A DNA stretch of 64,000 nt from the IMG/VR virus record IMGVR_UViG_3300046543_000082, positions 1 through 64,000 of that record; one strand, written 5' to 3'. Positions within the stretch are counted from its first letter, which is position 1. Every line of letters begins with the position of its first letter. Position numbers and translations under genes: made by a program. Source of the stretch: a virus. Below, piece after piece: positions 4,702 through 46,858 of this stretch. The notes below the pieces were generated by a model. It made no database searches. It saw only the letters and a list, made by a program, of their open reading frames with translations, and was not told where the DNA came from.

Positions 4702-5285
4702 CCGATCATACAAAGCTGCGCGAACTGGCGGAAGCCGCGACGCCAGGAGAATGGTTTCCGGAAACGTACAGCGATGGTCATCGACAGGTATGCGGAAATC
4801 AGCGTGTCGTTGACGATGACGAAGAGACGTATGCGACGATAGCCGATGTGCACAATCGCGCGGATCATGAGTATTTGGTAGCCGCCAATCCATTGATGAT
4901 CATCGCCCTGCTCGACGAAATCGGCTGCCTTCGCAAGAGTCTCGCCGAAGCCCTGCTATCCGCCGAGCGAGCGCGAGAAGAACGGAACCGCGAGCATGTC
5001 CGCCTCAATGCTGAGTGGATGGCGAAGTGCGAGGAGTTGCGGAAGGAGCGCGACCACTACCAGATGGCGGCCGAAGCTGAGGCCAAGTTCGCAGACGAGT
5101 TTCGAGAGAAAGCAGAGGAGTTGGCGGACAAGATGCGCATGGACATTATGAATATCCCGTGCAAAGAACCGGAGCATTTCGAAGATGCAGCAGTTCGGAT
5201 GGCCTATCGCGTAGGCCACCGAGACGCAAGGCACGCTGCGTTCGATATTGTTGGCTCGGTCGTGGCGAAGAAGGAGGGAGCGTAG
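4698..5285 (+). CDS. Ead/Ea22-like early protein, 195 aa
   Basis: GTG start overlapping the previous stop. The N-terminal part, with LRELAEAATPGEW and later EYLVAANP followed by a long charged coiled coil (about 75-150), follows the plan of Ead/Ea22-like phage proteins of unknown function. The coiled-coil segment AERAREERNREHVRLNAEW and the end VVAKKEGA are shared with the shorter phage Y gene at 45375. It lies just before xis. Confidence 0.75.
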   Translation: MTDHTKLRELAEAATPGEWFPETYSDGHRQVCGNQRVVDDDEETYATIADVHNRADHEYLVAANPLMIIALLDEIGCLRKSLAEALLSAERAREERNREHVRLNAEWMAKCEELRKERDHYQMAAEAEAKFADEFREKAEELADKMRMDIMNIPCKEPEHFEDAAVRMAYRVGHRDARHAAFDIVGSVVAKKEGA

Positions 5286-5483
5286 ATGAAGCTTCGACTC
5301 GACGAATGGTTGCGCCGGGAATTCGAGCCGGCGCCGGCCATCCGAACCGCGCGCCTGTGGATTCGTGACGGAAAAATATGGCCGGCGCCCGTGAAGGTCG
5401 GGCGAGCGTACTATGTCGATCAGAACGCCACGTTTCAGGACCGATCAACCCGGCCTTCACTGGCCCAGCGCATACAAAAATAA
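5286..5483 (+). CDS. xis: Excisionase, lambda Xis type
   Basis: 65 aa. The pattern LDEWLRREF..ARLWIRDGKIWPAPVKVGRAY resembles lambda Xis (winged helix, with the RxWxRxxxIxPxPxKxGR motif). Xis bends attP/attR DNA and steers integrase to excision. GGAGGGAGC precedes the ATG and the stop overlaps the int start (TAATG). Phage Y has an unrelated AlpA-like gene in this position. Confidence 0.8.
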   Translation: MKLRLDEWLRREFEPAPAIRTARLWIRDGKIWPAPVKVGRAYYVDQNATFQDRSTRPSLAQRIQK

Positions 5484-6592
5484 TGGCAGCCCGCCCACGG
5501 ATAAGACGCCGCGCCAACTGGCCGGCGAACCTGCATGAGCCGCGCCCCGGGTACTATACGTGGCTCGATCCGCGCGATAAGAAGACGCACATTCTTGGCC
5601 GCATTCCGCTCGCGCAGGCCATCCACGAGGCGCAAGAGGCGAACGTGATCGTGGAGAACGGGAAGCTGAATCGAACGCTTGCAGAGCGTCTATCAGCCCC
5701 GACGAACACGGTCGCCGACCTTATCAAACGTATGTCGACGGACGGCCAGAAGGCTTCGACGCTGAAAACGCGCGGGTATCTCGATGGAGCGATTGTCAAT
5801 GCAATCGGCACAGTCCCATGCAACGAACTGACGACAAAGCACGTCGCCGAGTTTATCGAGCCGCTTGTGGAGCAGGACAAAAAGCGCACGGCTCAGGCGA
5901 TTCGCAACCGCCTGATGTCAATTTGCCGGAAGGGAAAGCAACTCGGCTGGATGACAGAGAACCCGGTCACGGACACGGAACGGCCGAAGCCGAAGACGAA
6001 ACGGCGCCGGCTGAAGCTGGAAGAATTTCAGGCGATCTTCGAGAAGGCGCCGGAAGTGAACGACTGGTTGCAGAACGCGATGCTTCTGGCGCTCGTCTCA
6101 GGACAGGATCGGGCAACCATCGCGCGTTGGGAACGCTCGTTCTCGTCCGGAAGCGTCGTCCTTCTTCAGCGCTCGAAGACTTCGGTGAAGATCGAGATTC
6201 CAGTTGCGTTGCGACTCGACGCGATTGGTCTGTCGCTGGCTGATGTAATCGCGCGTTGCAAGTCGACCGGCGTCGTTAGCAAGTACCTGATCCACCATAT
6301 CAAGAATCAGGGGCGCGCCGTGCGTGGCTCGCATGTGAAGCTCGGCAGCATATCGATGGCGTTCGCCGCGGCGCGCGAGCTGGCGGGAATCACAGGCGAC
6401 GATCCGCCCACGTTTCACGAGATTCGCAGCCTGGCGAAGCGGCTTTACGACGAGCAGGGTGGCGTCGACACGAAAGCGTTGCTCGGCCACATGACCGACG
6501 CGATGGCGGAAATGTACGCCGACAGCCGGGGAATCGCGCCGATCAAAGTCACGATTGAGGAAAAAAATGGCGAGACCAAGAAGCAAGGGTAG
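5483..6592 (+). CDS. int: Tyrosine integrase, lambda Int type
   Basis: 369 aa from ATG 5483, which overlaps the xis stop; an upstream in-frame start would lie inside xis. Residues 1-60 form the arm-site-binding domain (LPPNL-like segment, GYYTWLDPR). A core-binding domain follows, then a catalytic domain with R210, K232, H312-x-x-R315, H336 and Y345, matching lambda Int closely in spacing. It integrates and, with Xis, excises phage X. Its attP should lie between here and 7435. The end overlaps the GIY-YIG gene by 26 bases. Confidence 0.93.
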   Translation: MAARPRIRRRANWPANLHEPRPGYYTWLDPRDKKTHILGRIPLAQAIHEAQEANVIVENGKLNRTLAERLSAPTNTVADLIKRMSTDGQKASTLKTRGYLDGAIVNAIGTVPCNELTTKHVAEFIEPLVEQDKKRTAQAIRNRLMSICRKGKQLGWMTENPVTDTERPKPKTKRRRLKLEEFQAIFEKAPEVNDWLQNAMLLALVSGQDRATIARWERSFSSGSVVLLQRSKTSVKIEIPVALRLDAIGLSLADVIARCKSTGVVSKYLIHHIKNQGRAVRGSHVKLGSISMAFAAARELAGITGDDPPTFHEIRSLAKRLYDEQGGVDTKALLGHMTDAMAEMYADSRGIAPIKVTIEEKNGETKKQG

Positions 6593-7145
6593 AACGGGGC
6601 TTCCGGAGAATCTATATTCTCAGATCAGAAACGGAAATGAGCATTTCAGATACCGAAGTCTTATAACTGGACGTACTAAATCAATTGGAACTGACCGCGA
6701 ACGCGCCGTCCAATATGCCGAAGAAGCCAATCGTGAAGTTGAAGGTAGGCGTGGTCTTAGAACTCACGCTCAGCAATCTGTTAAGCATGGCTATATAGAC
6801 TATCGTGGTCTTTTGGAGCAGGACACCATTGCCATGAAGGCACTGATGTTCGATCACATTTGCGGCGTCTATTTCCTATTGGATCAGGAAACGATAGTCT
6901 ATGTCGGTCAATCGCTGAACGTCATGGCACGTTTGTCAGATCACAGAAGAGAAGGACAAAAGCAGTTCAATCGAATTTTCGTCGTCGAATGCAAGATCGG
7001 AGAATTGACGCATCTGGAGGCACTATACATCGACAAGTTCAAGCCGATCTATAACCTAGCACGGCCGGCCGTTAACCCCGAGTCAACGGCATGGGATGCA
7101 TCTCTTTCAGACCTGCTTCGAGGGGCAGTGTATGAGCAGAATTAA
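6567..7145 (+). CDS. Integrase Arm-domain/GIY-YIG nuclease fusion
   Basis: 192 aa from ATG 6567, with TTGAGG six bases upstream. Residues 1-60 (LPENLY, YRSLITGRTKSIGTDRERA, AEEANREVEG) match the arm-site-binding domain that starts lambda-type integrases, including the int just upstream. Residues 99-165 form a GIY-YIG nuclease domain: GVY at 100-102, YVG at 112-114, R122/R127, catalytic E151 and N163. No recombinase catalytic domain follows. The gene overlaps int by 26 bases and is more AT-rich than its neighbours, suggesting late arrival. It should cut DNA at or near integrase arm sites; target and purpose are unknown. Confidence 0.8.
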   Translation: MARPRSKGRTGLPENLYSQIRNGNEHFRYRSLITGRTKSIGTDRERAVQYAEEANREVEGRRGLRTHAQQSVKHGYIDYRGLLEQDTIAMKALMFDHICGVYFLLDQETIVYVGQSLNVMARLSDHRREGQKQFNRIFVVECKIGELTHLEALYIDKFKPIYNLARPAVNPESTAWDASLSDLLRGAVYEQN

Positions 7146-7435
7146 CGACAAATATTCCACGCCTGTTCAACGCCCATCCGAAAAACGTTGCTGATAAAGG
7201 GATCTAGGTTAATCGGTACCACCTCGGAGATGTAGGCGCCTGAAGACGTTGATTTTCGCTTTATTTTCAAAGAATTATCTCCGTTTCAGCACGCAAAAAC
7301 ATGTGCCGAAATGAGCAATTACGTCCTAATGAAATCAAATACTTGCGCTTAGTTTTGAACAGATGAATATCGCGCTGTAGTAAAATCCGCGCGCTGACTG
7401 AATAAAAACTAAGCAAAAAATACCGAGAGGAGATT
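7146..7435. other. Gene-free gap; probable attP region of phage X
   Basis: 290 bases between the integration genes and the acyltransferase, AT-rich for this window. By analogy with xis-int-attP order the attachment site of phage X should lie here, but I see no clear core or arm repeat. The promoter of the next gene should be near its right end (TAAAAT at about 7381); its -35 is uncertain. A ribosome site GAGAGGAG is present at 7424-7431. Confidence 0.4.
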
Positions 7436-8587
7436 ATGGGCCTACTTCGAATAATCCTGGCGCTGTCCGTCTTCGCGGCGCATGCCTACGACGCCTTTGG
7501 CGGTGGCGCGCGGCTGATGGACTGGCATTCCCCAGCGTCGAGAAATGGCATGCACCTGTACGTCTGGTCGGGGCATGCCGTCTTCGCGTTCTTCATCCTG
7601 TCCGGCTTCTACATGGCGATGGTGATCAACGAGAAGTATTCGAAGATGCCCGACGGAACGCGACGCTTCTATTTCAACCGCGCGCTGCGGCTGTATCCGG
7701 CGAACTGGGTGATCCTGGCCGGGTTCGCGCTGGTCTATGTCGCGAGCGGTACGCCGTCGTTTCTCACATTCACCCACGGCGAATCGTGGATGACGCCGAT
7801 CGCGTTCTTCTGCAACCTGTTCTTCTTCGGCGCGGAGATCCTTCCATTCAAGCATCCGCAGAACTGGCAGTATGTCATCGGCCCGATCTGGTCGCTGAGT
7901 CTCGAAGCCTACTTCTACATCCTGGCGCCGTTCATCGTCACGCGGTCGCTGAAGTCGATTGCGCTGCTGGCTGCCGCGAGCGCTGCGCTGCGCCTCACGC
8001 TCTACCATACCGGCGTCGGTCCCGAGCCGTGGCGATACTTCTTCTTCCCGTCCGATCTCGTCTTCTTCCTGATGGGCGTGATCGCGTACCGCCTGTTTGC
8101 CTGCGTGAAGGATGCCGCGTGGACGAAGCCGGCCGGGATCTTCGCGGCTGCAGTGATCTTCGGTCTGATCGCGTTCCCGCCATTCTGGAAATATGCTTCC
8201 AATCTCGACTGCTGGCAGAGTTGGGCGTTCTATTTAACCGTCGCCGCGGGCACGCCGTTCCTGTTCAGCCTGACGAAGAACAGCGCGATCGACAACTTCA
8301 TCGGCCAGCTTTCATACCCGGTTTATCTCGGGCACATCTTGGTCTTCTCGGCGATGCTGTGCTTCTACAATGGCCCGATGGACAAGGGATTGCTGTCGCT
8401 GATCCTGACATTCATCATGGCAGTCGGCATTTATCTAGCCGTGGACAAGCCGATCGATTCCATCAGGCACAACATCGCTAGGCGGCGGGCGCCGGCGCAG
8501 GAGCCGCAACCGGACCGTACTGCGCCAGTGCTGCCGACAGAGCCGTCTGGAACGCGATCAGGCCAATCTGGATTGCGGTCTTCGTAG
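7436..8587 (+). CDS. Membrane acyltransferase (O-antigen acetylase type)
   Basis: 383 aa, with about ten hydrophobic segments, of the acyltransferase-3 family (OafA/WecH-like). Seen: LRIILALSVFAAHAYDAF at the N-terminus with the family histidine, RRFYFNRALRLYPANWV, WSLSLEAYFYILAPF and LSYPVYLGHILVF. Family members move acetyl groups onto lipopolysaccharide or other surface sugars. Placed between the integration genes and the lysis genes on the opposite strand, it is a typical lysogenic conversion gene likely blocking adsorption of related phages. The last 36 codons overlap the convergent lipoprotein gene. Confidence 0.85.
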   Translation: MGLLRIILALSVFAAHAYDAFGGGARLMDWHSPASRNGMHLYVWSGHAVFAFFILSGFYMAMVINEKYSKMPDGTRRFYFNRALRLYPANWVILAGFALVYVASGTPSFLTFTHGESWMTPIAFFCNLFFFGAEILPFKHPQNWQYVIGPIWSLSLEAYFYILAPFIVTRSLKSIALLAAASAALRLTLYHTGVGPEPWRYFFFPSDLVFFLMGVIAYRLFACVKDAAWTKPAGIFAAAVIFGLIAFPPFWKYASNLDCWQSWAFYLTVAAGTPFLFSLTKNSAIDNFIGQLSYPVYLGHILVFSAMLCFYNGPMDKGLLSLILTFIMAVGIYLAVDKPIDSIRHNIARRRAPAQEPQPDRTAPVLPTEPSGTRSGQSGLRSS

Positions 8588-8928: not shown

Positions 8929-9141
8929 TCAGGGCTTGAGGGTAGGTACTTCGGGGGTGCTACGGGCGTTGATGAGGTTGACGACGTAGTGCGCCGCGGT
9001 CAGGACGATTGCGCCCATTGTTCCTGCCACTTCAGCGGGAGGCGCGGGAAGCTTGCATGCTTGGCATAACCAGACAATGCAGCCGCCGAGCATTGCGCCG
9101 GTAACAGCCGATGCGCCGGTTGAGACGGGTGAGCTATTCAT
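8929..9141 (-). CDS. Putative holin, 70 aa
   Basis: Two hydrophobic stretches (about residues 10-27 and 38-58) with cysteines in the first and a proline-rich link between them. It lies directly after the lysozyme gene with a 4-base overlap. The size and position fit a class II holin. No family match I can name; the membrane proteins at 9612 and 10154 are other candidates. Confidence 0.5.
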   Translation of the reverse strand: MNSSPVSTGASAVTGAMLGGCIVWLCQACKLPAPPAEVAGTMGAIVLTAAHYVVNLINARSTPEVPTLKP

Positions 9142-9611
9142 TGCACGGCCTCCGGTTGGGCGTGAGCTTCCCCCGATAGATCGGCTCCGAGGGTGAACAG
9201 CGCGCGCTCGGCATTGCGCCGGCGCAGCAGGCCGGCGACGTGCTGGCCGCCCGATACGTCCCAGCGTTCAAATTCACCGATCGCGCCTTCGATGTCGTTC
9301 TCGTTGAGCAGTCGGAGCATCGTCGAATGCTGAAACGCGGTGATGCCGACGTTAAACGTAAAATCAACGAGAGAATCGAATTCTTCCTGCGTCAGACCGA
9401 TCTTGACTAGCAGGTTGACCGCGTTCACCGCGGCGGCAACGTCGTCGAGAAGCCATTTGTCGGCCTCTTCCTGCGTGCAGACCATGCCCGGATGCACGGC
9501 CAGCGTATGACCCCAGCCGATCGTCATCACGCCCTTGACATCGGGGTATGCCACGAGACGACAGCTTTCGAATTGCTCGGTGAGAGCCATTCCCTGTTTC
9601 GAGTACTGCAT
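9138..9611 (-). CDS. Endolysin, GH24 lysozyme
   Basis: 157 aa. The T4-lysozyme-type catalytic triad E15-(8)-D24-(5)-T30 is present in EQFESCRLVAYPDVKGVMTI, and GWGHT follows. It cleaves the glycan bonds of peptidoglycan for host lysis. No signal peptide or SAR anchor is obvious, so a holin is needed. Neighbours are membrane proteins of the lysis group. The phage Y endolysin at 49522 keeps the same catalytic spacing but differs in sequence. Confidence 0.92.
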   Translation of the reverse strand: MQYSKQGMALTEQFESCRLVAYPDVKGVMTIGWGHTLAVHPGMVCTQEEADKWLLDDVAAAVNAVNLLVKIGLTQEEFDSLVDFTFNVGITAFQHSTMLRLLNENDIEGAIGEFERWDVSGGQHVAGLLRRRNAERALFTLGADLSGEAHAQPEAVQ

Positions 9612-30593: not shown

Positions 30594-31907
30594 CTACGCG
30601 ATCGACAATTTCGGGTAATTGATGGGCTTCATCTCGACCGGTTCCTGCCACGCGATGCACATCAGGCCGAAGCCGTCTGCGCTGTGGCTTGACCAGTCGT
30701 GATCAGGACCGAGGCCGATGCCGCGCTCAAGGTCACGCTTCTCGTGATACCAACCGAGCGCCGAGCGTCCTGCCTCAGTCGTCACGTCGTTGAACCGGAT
30801 CTGCGGGAACAGCACGCGCGCGCGCTCGATACGAGCCATCGCAGCGCCCTTGCCCTGATTCGGCACGACCGTGACGCTGTAGCCAGCCTTCCTCAGCGCC
30901 GACTCATACGACACGTCGTACACCTTGTCCTGCGTCGAGCCGTCGTGCGGCAGCCATATCTGCGCCCTGGACGGCTCGTAACCCTGCGACCGTGCCCAGG
31001 CAAGGTGAGCGTCGACGGGCTGCCCTACGGCCTCGTAGTGGTTCACAACGCGCACTTCGCGCCCGATGAACTGCGCCGCCCAAATGGCGAACGCGTCAGC
31101 CTTGGCGCCTGTCCCGCCGATGTCGCAGAACAGCCGAATCGTCATCAGCGGATCAGCCGGGAAGAATCCGATGCGTCCTTCTTCCTTCGCCTTCTGAAGA
31201 TGCTTGGCGAAGTACGCGCCCTCAAGCGCTGTGACGAAGCCGCCTTCCCAGATGTGGTCGTACTGCTCAGGCCGCTCTTCGAGATCGCGCTGCCTGTCGC
31301 GCTCAAGCTTGGCCGGGAACTTCGGATTGTCGCGCCAGTTCAGCACAACAATCTTGATGCGCGGATCGTTGCTGTTGACCGTGAAACGCTTCTCGACCGG
31401 CGCCGTCTTGCGCTTCGGGTTCCATGTGATCCACAACTCTGCGTTCCAGCCCTCGCCTTCCTCACGCAGCGTCGGAATCAGCGTCGTCCAGGCTTCGTCT
31501 GTGACCGGCTCGGCCTCGTCCACCCAGCAGACCAGAATCCGGCCTTTCGACTTGATGCTGGCGATGTTCCGATCCAAGCCCGCGAACACGAACGAGATTC
31601 GCCCGTCGCGGCTCCTGATGTACCGATCGCCGATCTCGTAATACGACTTCAGGAACGGCTCGTCCTCGATCGCGCGCTTGCATTCCTCAAGCGACGAGTC
31701 TTCGAGCGAGTTCATGTACTGCCGACCGCACAGCAGAATGCCGCTGATGCCGGACATACCGAAGATGTAGCCCTTCACGGCCACCATCTTGGCGAAACTG
31801 CGCGTCTTGGCCGAGCCGCGACCACCCTTGGCGCCGCGCACGTCGGCCTCGCCCTCGAAGACTGGAATTAGCTTCTCGGGGAGCGCGATATGCGCCGTTG
31901 CGCTCAC
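30594..31907 (-). CDS. terL: Terminase large subunit
   Basis: 437 aa. Walker A GAKGGRGSAKT at 25-35, Walker B VDEAE at 129-133, and the C-terminal nuclease with its first acidic residue in RLFCDIGGTGAKADAFA and a late DWSSHSADGFG segment. It translocates DNA into the prohead and cuts concatemers. Four-base overlap with the small subunit gene. Terminase_3-like family. Confidence 0.93.
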   Translation of the reverse strand: MSATAHIALPEKLIPVFEGEADVRGAKGGRGSAKTRSFAKMVAVKGYIFGMSGISGILLCGRQYMNSLEDSSLEECKRAIEDEPFLKSYYEIGDRYIRSRDGRISFVFAGLDRNIASIKSKGRILVCWVDEAEPVTDEAWTTLIPTLREEGEGWNAELWITWNPKRKTAPVEKRFTVNSNDPRIKIVVLNWRDNPKFPAKLERDRQRDLEERPEQYDHIWEGGFVTALEGAYFAKHLQKAKEEGRIGFFPADPLMTIRLFCDIGGTGAKADAFAIWAAQFIGREVRVVNHYEAVGQPVDAHLAWARSQGYEPSRAQIWLPHDGSTQDKVYDVSYESALRKAGYSVTVVPNQGKGAAMARIERARVLFPQIRFNDVTTEAGRSALGWYHEKRDLERGIGLGPDHDWSSHSADGFGLMCIAWQEPVEMKPINYPKLSIA

Positions 31908-39881: not shown

Positions 39882-40348
39882 TGAACTGGAACCGAAGAAT
39901 TACTGAAGCCAGAGAAGCCCGCTCGATGTCCAAGGCGGAGTTGGCGCGCGCCTGTAATGTGTCGGCGCCGACCGTGACCGACTGGGAAAGCGGGAAAATA
40001 AAAAACCTCGACGCGGCCAATATGCTGACGATCTGCGAGGTTTTGGGAGTCGAACCCCGGTGGCTAGTGTGGGGATTTGAGAGCGGCAAATCGCCGAACA
40101 GAGGGGACTTCGTGCCTATTACCGGCGAAGCAAAAAAGCTAATTCAGTGCGTCATGCGTCTGGACAAGGGGGGGCCAAAAGTACGACAAACGTTTGCTTA
40201 CACTCTCGGCATCCTTGAAATTGTCGAAAGATTGGGATTGGTACATGATGCCGATGTGGTGGCCGAGCTTGCAGAACAGGAGCAGCTCTTGGCACTCCAC
40301 GCCGAGCCATCTAGGGTTTTAAAACATGCCCCCCGCAAGCACAAATGA
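39881..40348 (+). CDS. Lysogeny repressor, XRE family without peptidase domain
   Basis: 155 aa. A helix-turn-helix at about 13-40 (SMSKAELARACNVSAPTVTD, WESGKIKNL) and LTICEVLGVEPRWLVWG identify a CI-like repressor. The remaining 80 residues are helical and lack the LexA-type Ser/Lys catalytic part, so RecA-stimulated self-cleavage is unlikely. Divergent from the Cro-like gene. Induction must use another route. Confidence 0.8.
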   Translation: MNWNRRITEAREARSMSKAELARACNVSAPTVTDWESGKIKNLDAANMLTICEVLGVEPRWLVWGFESGKSPNRGDFVPITGEAKKLIQCVMRLDKGGPKVRQTFAYTLGILEIVERLGLVHDADVVAELAEQEQLLALHAEPSRVLKHAPRKHK

Positions 40349-40586: not shown

Positions 40587-40711
40587 TGCACTGAAGAACA
40601 AGCAGCGCATCGGATAGCCCGGCAACGTGAGTTGGGAATGTCTAGCCCGAACTGCAATCGGGCCGACCGGATGACCTGGCGAAATCGGAGCCAGCGACGC
40701 GACAGAGCCGA
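40587..40711 (+). ncRNA. Structured early-operon leader (copy 2)
   Basis: Identical over 125 bases to 1-125 and begins about 7-8 bases after the -10 box, so it should be the 5' end of the early transcript. GCCCGA/TCGGGC and CTGGC/GCCAG hairpins are present. Right of 40711 the two phages differ until the ribosome site of the first gene. An antitermination (put-like) or small-RNA role is inferred. Confidence 0.6.
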
Positions 40712-40771
40712 TGAAGTTTTATCAAGGCGTCTTGCTAAGGGCGCCGTGACAAAACCACAAAGGGGATAGAT

Positions 40772-45680: not shown

Positions 45681-45866
45681 ATGAGCGAGCTTCTCACACC
45701 TGACGAAGTGGCTTCGAAATTGAAGATCGAACGCCGCTCTTTCTTGCGTACAGTAGCCAAGCAGCCGGACTTCCCGGCGCCGATTCGGATCGGTCCAAGA
45801 ATCCTACGCTGGCATGCAGAGCATGTTGCTCAGTGGATCGAGCGAAGCACGCGCCGTGCGGCCTAG
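45681..45866 (+). CDS. AlpA-type excisionase/HTH protein, 61 aa
   Basis: LLTPDEVASKLKIERRSFLR then FPAPIRIGPRILRWHAEHVA and QWIERS: a MerR/AlpA-like winged helix of excisionases. GGAGGGAGCG precedes the ATG. The integrase gene runs in the opposite direction and overlaps by four bases. It likely directs excision of phage Y. Confidence 0.8.
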   Translation: MSELLTPDEVASKLKIERRSFLRTVAKQPDFPAPIRIGPRILRWHAEHVAQWIERSTRRAA

Positions 45867-46858
45867 TCCAGTTTGGCCGCCAACTCTTCGGGCGTCGGGT
45901 TGTAGTAGATCAGCAATGATTTCAAATCCCGATGCCCGATCACGCGCGCAAGCTCCAAGACGGTCAACTTATTGGAAAGCCGAGTACAAGCCTCGTGGCG
46001 GCTGTCGTGAAAATGCAGAGTTGTGATACTTGGCATTTCCTTTGCGGCCTTCTGGCGCGCCTTTCTGAAAAGCGTACCGAGCGATTGGCCGTGGAACGTG
46101 AAAACATTCGTTTCGTGGCGACCCCGGAGTTTTGCGATTAGATCGACAGCTCGCTTTGATAGCGGAACATGGCGCTCATCATAGTTCTTCGTCTTGCTCA
46201 GGTGGACGCTTCTTGGGCTGACTTCCGGCCAATGTAGAGAGCATAGTTCACCGACGCGCATCCCTGTTTCGATTGCCAGCATGAAAGCGACAGCCATTTC
46301 CTGCTGTTTTGTCGTAACCGGTTGATCTTCCGAATAACCCAATGCCGAGCACATGATTTTTATTTCCGACTCGGAAACACGTCTGTTGCGTGGCTTCGGA
46401 TCGCGCGGACGCTTCACGTCTTCAAATGGGATCGAATCGAGCCATCGCCATTCTTTCCTCGCTATCTGGAAGACGGACATAAGCAGGTTCCATTCTCGAT
46501 TCACGCTGGCTGCTGATACCTCTTTCAATCGAGCGTCGCGCCAAATGGCAATGTCAGTCTGCGTGACCTCGCTGATTATCTTGTTCCTGAATGGAAGTTC
46601 TCGACCGAGCTTGGCGAGGCGGACACGTTCCCATCGCTCGCCTTTCTTGGTCGGCGCCACTTCCTCTGCGTACTTGACGAGCGCTTCTGAGACGAAACGC
46701 TTTGGCAAATCACCTCTGACGCCTGCTAGTATTTCCGCCTCGCGAGCAGTCGCCCATGCGACAGCCTGGGCCTTGGTCGGGAACGTGTCAGAATCCCGCA
46801 CACCGGCCTTCTCGATCTCTGCCCGCCATCCCTTGGAACGCTTCCTGTAGTACGCCAT
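45863..46858 (-). CDS. int: Tyrosine integrase of phage Y
   Basis: 331 aa. Short N-terminal arm domain (YYRKRSKGWRAEIEKAGVRD), SAM-like core domain, and a catalytic domain with R201 in ETGMRVGEL, K near 222-224, H284-x-x-R287 in HDSRH, H309 in IGHRD and Tyr at 318 or 319. It is unlike the lambda-type Int of X and faces the opposite way. attP lies directly upstream (46868-47097). Confidence 0.92.
   Translation of the reverse strand: MAYYRKRSKGWRAEIEKAGVRDSDTFPTKAQAVAWATAREAEILAGVRGDLPKRFVSEALVKYAEEVAPTKKGERWERVRLAKLGRELPFRNKIISEVTQTDIAIWRDARLKEVSAASVNREWNLLMSVFQIARKEWRWLDSIPFEDVKRPRDPKPRNRRVSESEIKIMCSALGYSEDQPVTTKQQEMAVAFMLAIETGMRVGELCSLHWPEVSPRSVHLSKTKNYDERHVPLSKRAVDLIAKLRGRHETNVFTFHGQSLGTLFRKARQKAAKEMPSITTLHFHDSRHEACTRLSNKLTVLELARVIGHRDLKSLLIYYNPTPEELAAKLD

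Follow-up and report, generated by a model that had tools for sequence, protein, structure and literature searches.

The gene at positions 6567-7145 of the window (the whole 64,000-nucleotide stretch of IMG/VR virus record IMGVR_UViG_3300046543_000082 analyzed here) encodes a lambda-type integrase arm domain fused to a GIY-YIG nuclease domain (about residues 99-163), an architecture confirmed by sequence profiles and a predicted structure. With confidence just above even, we interpret the product as a free-standing homing-type nuclease that has captured an integrase head and is aimed at arm sites in the attP of other phages. Features of the locus, and the contigs carrying related chimeras, are collected in Table 1.

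Table 1. Features of the int-attP region of the window, and contigs grouped by nuclease head class and gene arrangement
Feature	Position or contigs	Strand	Basis or remark
xis-like excisionase gene (65 aa)	5286-5483	+	Pfam Exc PF07825, E 2.4e-15
int, lambda-type tyrosine integrase (369 aa)	5483-6592	+	Pfam Phage_integrase 1e-10, Phage_int_M 2.4e-9, Arm-DNA-bind_1 1.5e-7
Arm-binding domain of int	5483-5689	+	PF09003 match
GAGG, likely ribosome-binding site of nuclease gene	6557-6560	+	6 bases before ATG 6567
596-bp insertion relative to nuclease-free relatives, essentially the nuclease gene alone	6558-7153	+	Alignment with L449/L450/L451
Chimeric nuclease gene (192 aa), integrase arm-binding domain and GIY-YIG	6567-7145	+	Profile, residue conservation, predicted fold
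Arm-binding head, residues 1-60	6567-6746	+	PF09003, E 1.5e-10; model beta-beta-beta-alpha; 1kjk TM 0.78
GIY-YIG catalytic domain, residues 100-163	6864-7055	+	PF01541, E 5.5e-4; invariant residues; UvrC fold matches
Non-coding region (290 bp), likely attP	7146-7435		Downstream of int; no convincing ORF; conserved in relatives
Candidate arm-type repeat ACGCCTGTTC	7159-7168	+	Weak
Further candidate arm-type repeats	7297-7306, 7357-7366	-	Weak
Conserved 23-mer GCAATTACGTCCTAATGAAATCA, candidate att core	7315-7337	+	Identical in L325/L326
Lambda-arm head lineages	window, L325/L326, L308, L458, L011/L012, L169, L010, L489, L305
'MASI' head lineages	L062, L063, L069/L070/L088, L096/L097, L352, L047, L496
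Single-member head classes	L068; L170		Each head matches neighbor integrase only
Nuclease downstream of int, overlapping or close	window, L325, L308, L458, L011, L068, L169
Nuclease upstream of int	L096, L170
Nuclease divergent from int	L010, L489, L062, L063, L069, L305, L352, L496

Assignment of the first 60 residues to the integrase arm family, proposed in a preliminary description made from the sequence alone, was upheld by Pfam (Arm-DNA-bind_1, residues 1-60, 41.4 bits against a cut-off of 22) and by phmmer matches to the lambda Int N-domain structures 1kjk and 2wcc in the PDB. Structure prediction, also suggested in that description, recovered both folds. The AlphaFold model of the head was beta-beta-beta-alpha, with block means of 86-92 across residues 11-60, and Foldseek matched the protein model to 1kjk (TM 0.78 by target, 41% identity) and to 2wcc. 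The GIY-YIG match, over residues 99-159, scored 20.6 bits against a Pfam cut-off of 22.6; the modeled domain was beta-beta-alpha-beta-alpha, mostly at 91-97 (whole-protein mean pLDDT 81.6), and Foldseek matched the UvrC GIY-YIG domain with an E of 4e-4. The chimera of contig L010 exceeded both Pfam cut-offs (Arm-DNA-bind_1 33.6 bits, GIY-YIG 23.4 bits), and that of L011 scored 22.1 bits for Arm-DNA-bind_1.

The GIY-YIG domain of the window protein carries G100/Y102, Y112/G114, R122, H126, E151, and N163, all of which, together with V111, are invariant in 15 of 15 chimeras. Among the catalytic residues originally named, only R127 was not borne out, the conserved second basic position being H126. 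Loss of the catalytic arginine or glutamate in relatives, named beforehand as grounds for abandoning the reading, was not seen at R122 or E151. The open reading frame runs from an ATG to a TAA stop and, as first reported, overlaps the 3' end of int by 26 bp (6567 to 6592), so the nuclease is probably co-translated with int. Its GC content is 47.5%, versus 60.0% for int and 58.5% for the window; the higher AT content remarked on earlier was thus confirmed, and the suggestion of recent capture holds up. An identical nuclease protein is encoded by L001, the sister contig of the window record.

Alignment with nuclease-free relatives showed the gene to be a clean, sporadic insertion of about 600 bp between int and attP. 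Contigs L449, L450, and L451 aligned over xis and int (5263-6557) at 87-88% DNA identity with the nuclease absent, and for L449 and L450 the alignment picked up again at 7224-7338. The flanks GTCACGATTG (6548-6557) and ATTCCACGCCTGTT (7154-7167) are common to the window and L449; their spacing is 22 bp in L449 versus 596 bp in the window, where the interval is taken up by the nuclease gene with its ribosome-binding site. In the empty allele, int reads to a terminal VTIGG, and the window int extends into inserted sequence. A scan with the window integrase gathered 37 contigs of its family, and the nuclease was present in 4 of the 28 that could be assessed, representing three lineages. In 12 of 14 chimera lineages the nuclease lay 6-20 points below the neighboring int in GC. 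A nuclease-only insertion missing from close relatives, as found here, is a trait of free-standing homing endonucleases.

The start of int was placed at ATG 5483, the Met at which its relatives also start; a start at 5378 was rejected, since in the longer ORF Arm-DNA-bind_1 begins only at residue 36. In lambda, attP is located downstream of int, and the likely attP of the window is conserved in L325/L326 and in the nuclease-free L449-L451. The 23-mer GCAATTACGTCCTAATGAAATCA recurs with 1-2 mismatches in L449, L450, L451, L461-L463, and L475. This candidate core lies about 163-174 nt past the int stop in nuclease-free contigs (174 nt in L449) and 722 nt past int in the window's sister. A search for attB with a 20-mer core found none in 399 genomes. 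At two or fewer mismatches GCACCTGTTC occurs three times in the window and five times in L326, barely above shuffled controls; it was rejected as an arm-site motif, being marginally above shuffles and, in L010, at chance level.

Beside the presumed attP, an ORF at 7436-8587 is membrane acyltransferase-like, and different cargo genes occupy this place in L011, L012, and L449 (lipoprotein or hydrolase-like; all named from reading of the sequence), making this a moron site. The full IMG/VR record of 80,256 bases (G000) holds two different but related phages of about 40 kb joined head to tail, and a separate int belongs to each (5483-6592, and 45863-46858 on the minus strand). Repeats in the record pair 1-133 with 40587-40721 (98%) and 40138-40300 with 79997-80159 (97%), and the arrangement represents either tandem prophages or an assembly join.

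Profile scans of viral contigs recovered 18 lineages of chimeras joining an integrase N-domain to GIY-YIG, with heads from four integrase classes, and many GIY-YIG relatives with other N-termini. This spread over four classes, like the mismatch between heads and their own integrases presented below, is absent from the preliminary description. MASI heads follow the pattern MASITxxNGKWRAQVYVKGxRD and matched no Pfam arm family at gathering score; the modeled head is again beta-beta-beta-alpha, weakly resembling AP2 and dsRBD-like folds. The chimeras, known mostly from metagenome contigs and with heads of about 60 aa, keep their frames intact, begin at start codons of their own that mostly have a plausible ribosome-binding site, and occupy several insertion positions around int. 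The search for arm and GIY-YIG pairs beside int that had been suggested earlier was positive throughout: among representatives with enough flank, int lay within 1 kb in 14 of 14 chimeras versus 8 of 62 relatives with other heads (Fisher p 4.7e-10), and although the head class of L068 and L170 was recognized via the neighboring int, the contrast without both is still 12 of 12.

Searches of 50,697 phage and 72,556 plasmid records found no full-length chimera, only separate arm or GIY-YIG matches. L169 and L170 were the only chimeras in the genome contig collection, and further Burkholderiales-type and gammaproteobacterial genomes yielded only L169's own chimera, the other matches being UvrC-like proteins and integrase N-domains. 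In a 107-row GIY-YIG tree the arm class seems to have arisen two or more times, and a smaller, quick tree placed all chimeras on one side and did not reject a single clade (p-AU 0.22), both trees using 77-78 columns.

Several related nucleases and loci were also recorded. L346 (3992-4429) encodes a nuclease close to that of L010 with the arm domain missing, and the int of this contig lies at its far end. In L308 (2844-4008) the neighboring int is apparently frameshifted, its arm domain and catalytic part falling in different ORFs. GIY-YIG nucleases of the same superfamily with HTH or Xis-like heads occur in L005 (2448-4333; Sinorhizobium phage NV1.1.1), L357, L365, L366, and L074, and those of L005, L357, and L365 adjoin int, making up three of the eight int-adjacent exceptions. 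The L005 head matched Pfam HTH_17 at E 0.06. These are possibly excisionase-headed analogues that carry another att-binding head. In L144 and L172 (Vreelandella andesensis), the same RPDF-type GIY-YIG nuclease lies upstream, at 217 bp, of an integrase whose N-domain is unrelated.

To relate heads to integrases, every head was compared with every integrase N-domain by local alignment scores. Head class matches the class of the neighboring int (permutation p 1e-4 over 14 loci; 5e-6 with 8 others), but within a class a head scores no better with its own int than with one taken at random (p 0.68 for the lambda class, 0.125 for the MASI class). Ranked among 31 distinct lambda-arm integrases, the own int came 29th for the window head, 28th for L325, and 13th for L308, ranks that are not independent because the three form one sub-lineage; it came 11th for L458, 15th for L305, and first for L011 and L169, and L010 and L489 have an own int of a different class from the head. 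Among 51 MASI-type integrases the ranks of the own int were 3, 22, 22, 24, 47, and 8. The own int was the best match in 4 of 17 lineages, namely L011, L169, L068, and L170, of which the last two are without competitor in the integrase set. Copying of the window head from its own int was rejected, the score being 46 for that int versus 113 for the int of L169. The notion that a head always mirrors the neighboring int holds for the class and fails for the individual pair.

L010 and L062 offer direct clues that heads were borrowed from another phage. Over 52 aa, the head of L010 shares 54% identity with the arm of the window's integrase, including a ten-residue identical run (NLHEPRPGYY), and the sole integrase found on the 40-kb L010 contig is of the MASI class. 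The two phages are related: the counterpart of window 30594-31907 (probably the large terminase) is 76% identical, a putative structural protein 72%, another protein 73%, and the protein matching 9138-9611 67%. L489 repeats the L010 arrangement. At the DNA level, the L062 head scored 41 against the int of L010, 40 against that of L500, and 26 against its own, with a shuffled maximum of 14-16. That heads are often closer to the integrase of another phage suggests that the enzyme is directed against competitors at their integration site.

Under the favored interpretation, the targeting domain of a GIY-YIG homing endonuclease would have been replaced by a phage integrase arm-binding domain, and this head would bind the arm-type sites of attP in those related temperate phages that use that integrase type. 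The GIY-YIG domain would nick or cut at the bound attP, the cut would spoil the competitor's circularized genome or its integration, and repair from the nuclease-bearing phage would transfer the nuclease, along with the int-att module, to the rival's genome by intronless homing or marker exclusion. The phage's own DNA, we propose, may be spared because its own integrase uses differently recognized arm sites. A tentative generalization, whose chances we place somewhat short of even, is that the chimeras are modular 'anti-integration' nucleases, in which a GIY-YIG lineage swaps in the arm domain of a competing integrase, cuts that attP, blocks rival lysogeny, and drives int-att replacement. We infer arm-site binding and nearby cutting by analogy with lambda Int, whose N-domain binds arm-type sites (PMC4880445), and with GIY-YIG biology; rival interference and int-att replacement are suggested by analogy with Odn (PMC8263062) and with the nuclease genes that occur at borders of exchange (PMC10448857).

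Three functions were put forward in the preliminary description. The cutting of rival phages and homing at integrase loci fit best, the former on the frequent closeness of heads to other phages' integrases and the latter on the clean, sporadic insertion between int and attP. Pure interference needs no linkage to int, so the linkage favors the homing part, and its steadiness favors homing or co-conversion; interference is favored by the disagreement between heads and own int. Specificity for arm sites rests on few residues, so that binding to the phage's own arm sites may persist despite a mismatched arm sequence, and in the four lineages whose own int is the best match the nuclease might act on its own attP.

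The third function, tuning of integration versus excision, is the weakest of the three, the own int ranking only 29th of 31 for the window head. In this scenario, which we consider quite unlikely, the nuclease acts on its own attP or attL/attR, either competing with Int for arm sites or working as a nickase. Overlap with int and probable co-translation, agreement in class between head and neighboring int in most loci, and the best matches to the own int in L011, L169, L068, and L170 are in keeping with it, yet another integrase is closer in 13 of 17 lineages, the heads of L010 and L489 differ in class from their own int, and close relatives whose int and att region are 88% identical do without the nuclease. 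That the gene has no function, as the product of a chance fusion or a remnant in decay, seems extremely unlikely: low GC, sporadic presence, and one arm-less relative (L346) might be expected of a remnant, but the reading frames are intact in 18 lineages, the catalytic residues do not vary, the heads come from four classes, and the genes have start codons of their own and, for the most part, plausible ribosome-binding sites.

A protein that binds DNA at arm sites as a repressor or roadblock, and cuts only secondarily or not at all, would recall I-TevI, which doubles as an autorepressor. We hold this role to be very improbable, since the catalytic GIY-YIG residues are all kept across 15 divergent members, even though the lambda Int arm domain alone binds DNA (solved with DNA, 2wcc; PMC4880445). 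Finally, the gene may encode a homing endonuclease that is purely selfish, resides in the int-attP spacer, and spreads by intronless homing, the head being an aid to reaching a conserved target and the phage gaining nothing. This is unlikely but carries some weight, given the clean one-gene insertion, sporadic presence, low GC, several insertion positions near int, and the standing of GIY-YIG as the classic free-standing homing class (PMC1564403). Such an element, however, predicts a head that fits its own empty allele, whereas heads often fit other integrase families, and the empty-allele site of the window has a W-type int poorly matched by its own head (score 46).

If the anti-rival interpretation is true, temperate phages contest lysogeny at the attachment site with a rival's integrase domain as the aiming device, and the Odn principle (PMC8263062) is carried from satellite origins to phage integration. 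It would also supply a reason for the frequent exchange of phage integration modules, and would identify natural nucleases that are readdressed through a head of roughly 60 residues. Literature searches found no paper joining GIY-YIG with an integrase arm-binding domain or attP, in agreement with the earlier statement that no described system of this architecture is known, although a clear conceptual precedent exists in ICP1 Odn (PMC8263062).

Odn (Gp88) and the RepA_N-T5orf172 nucleases likewise combine a homing-type nuclease of the GIY-YIG superfamily with a head captured from a DNA-handling protein of a competing element, and their heads also vary and mirror their targets (PMC8263062, PMC10448857). 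The Odn head is 42% identical to PLE RepA_N, and Odn cuts the PLE origin (PMC8263062). The same principle is seen in L010, whose head is homologous to a DNA-handling protein of another phage (the arm of the window's int, 54%), albeit a different protein. Odn has a RepA replication-initiator head and a T5orf172 domain, targets a satellite replication origin, and belongs to a lytic phage; the chimera has an integrase arm head and a canonical GIY-YIG domain (PF01541), and lies at the int-attP of temperate phages with attP as its presumed target. Pfam gave no T5orf172 match in the window protein (head PF09003, nuclease PF01541), and the chimera, lacking both RepA_N and T5orf172, is not classed as Odn. 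Free-standing GIY-YIG homing endonucleases (T4 Seg family, I-TevI; PMC1564403) share the catalytic domain, single-gene insertion, and sporadic distribution, but orthodox members have NUMOD-type heads C-terminal to GIY-YIG, in contrast to the N-terminal integrase arm domain of the chimera. The lambda integrase N-domain (PF09003, 1kjk/2wcc) belongs to the same sequence family and predicted fold as the head, and in the chimera a nuclease stands in place of the core-binding and catalytic domains of that integrase.
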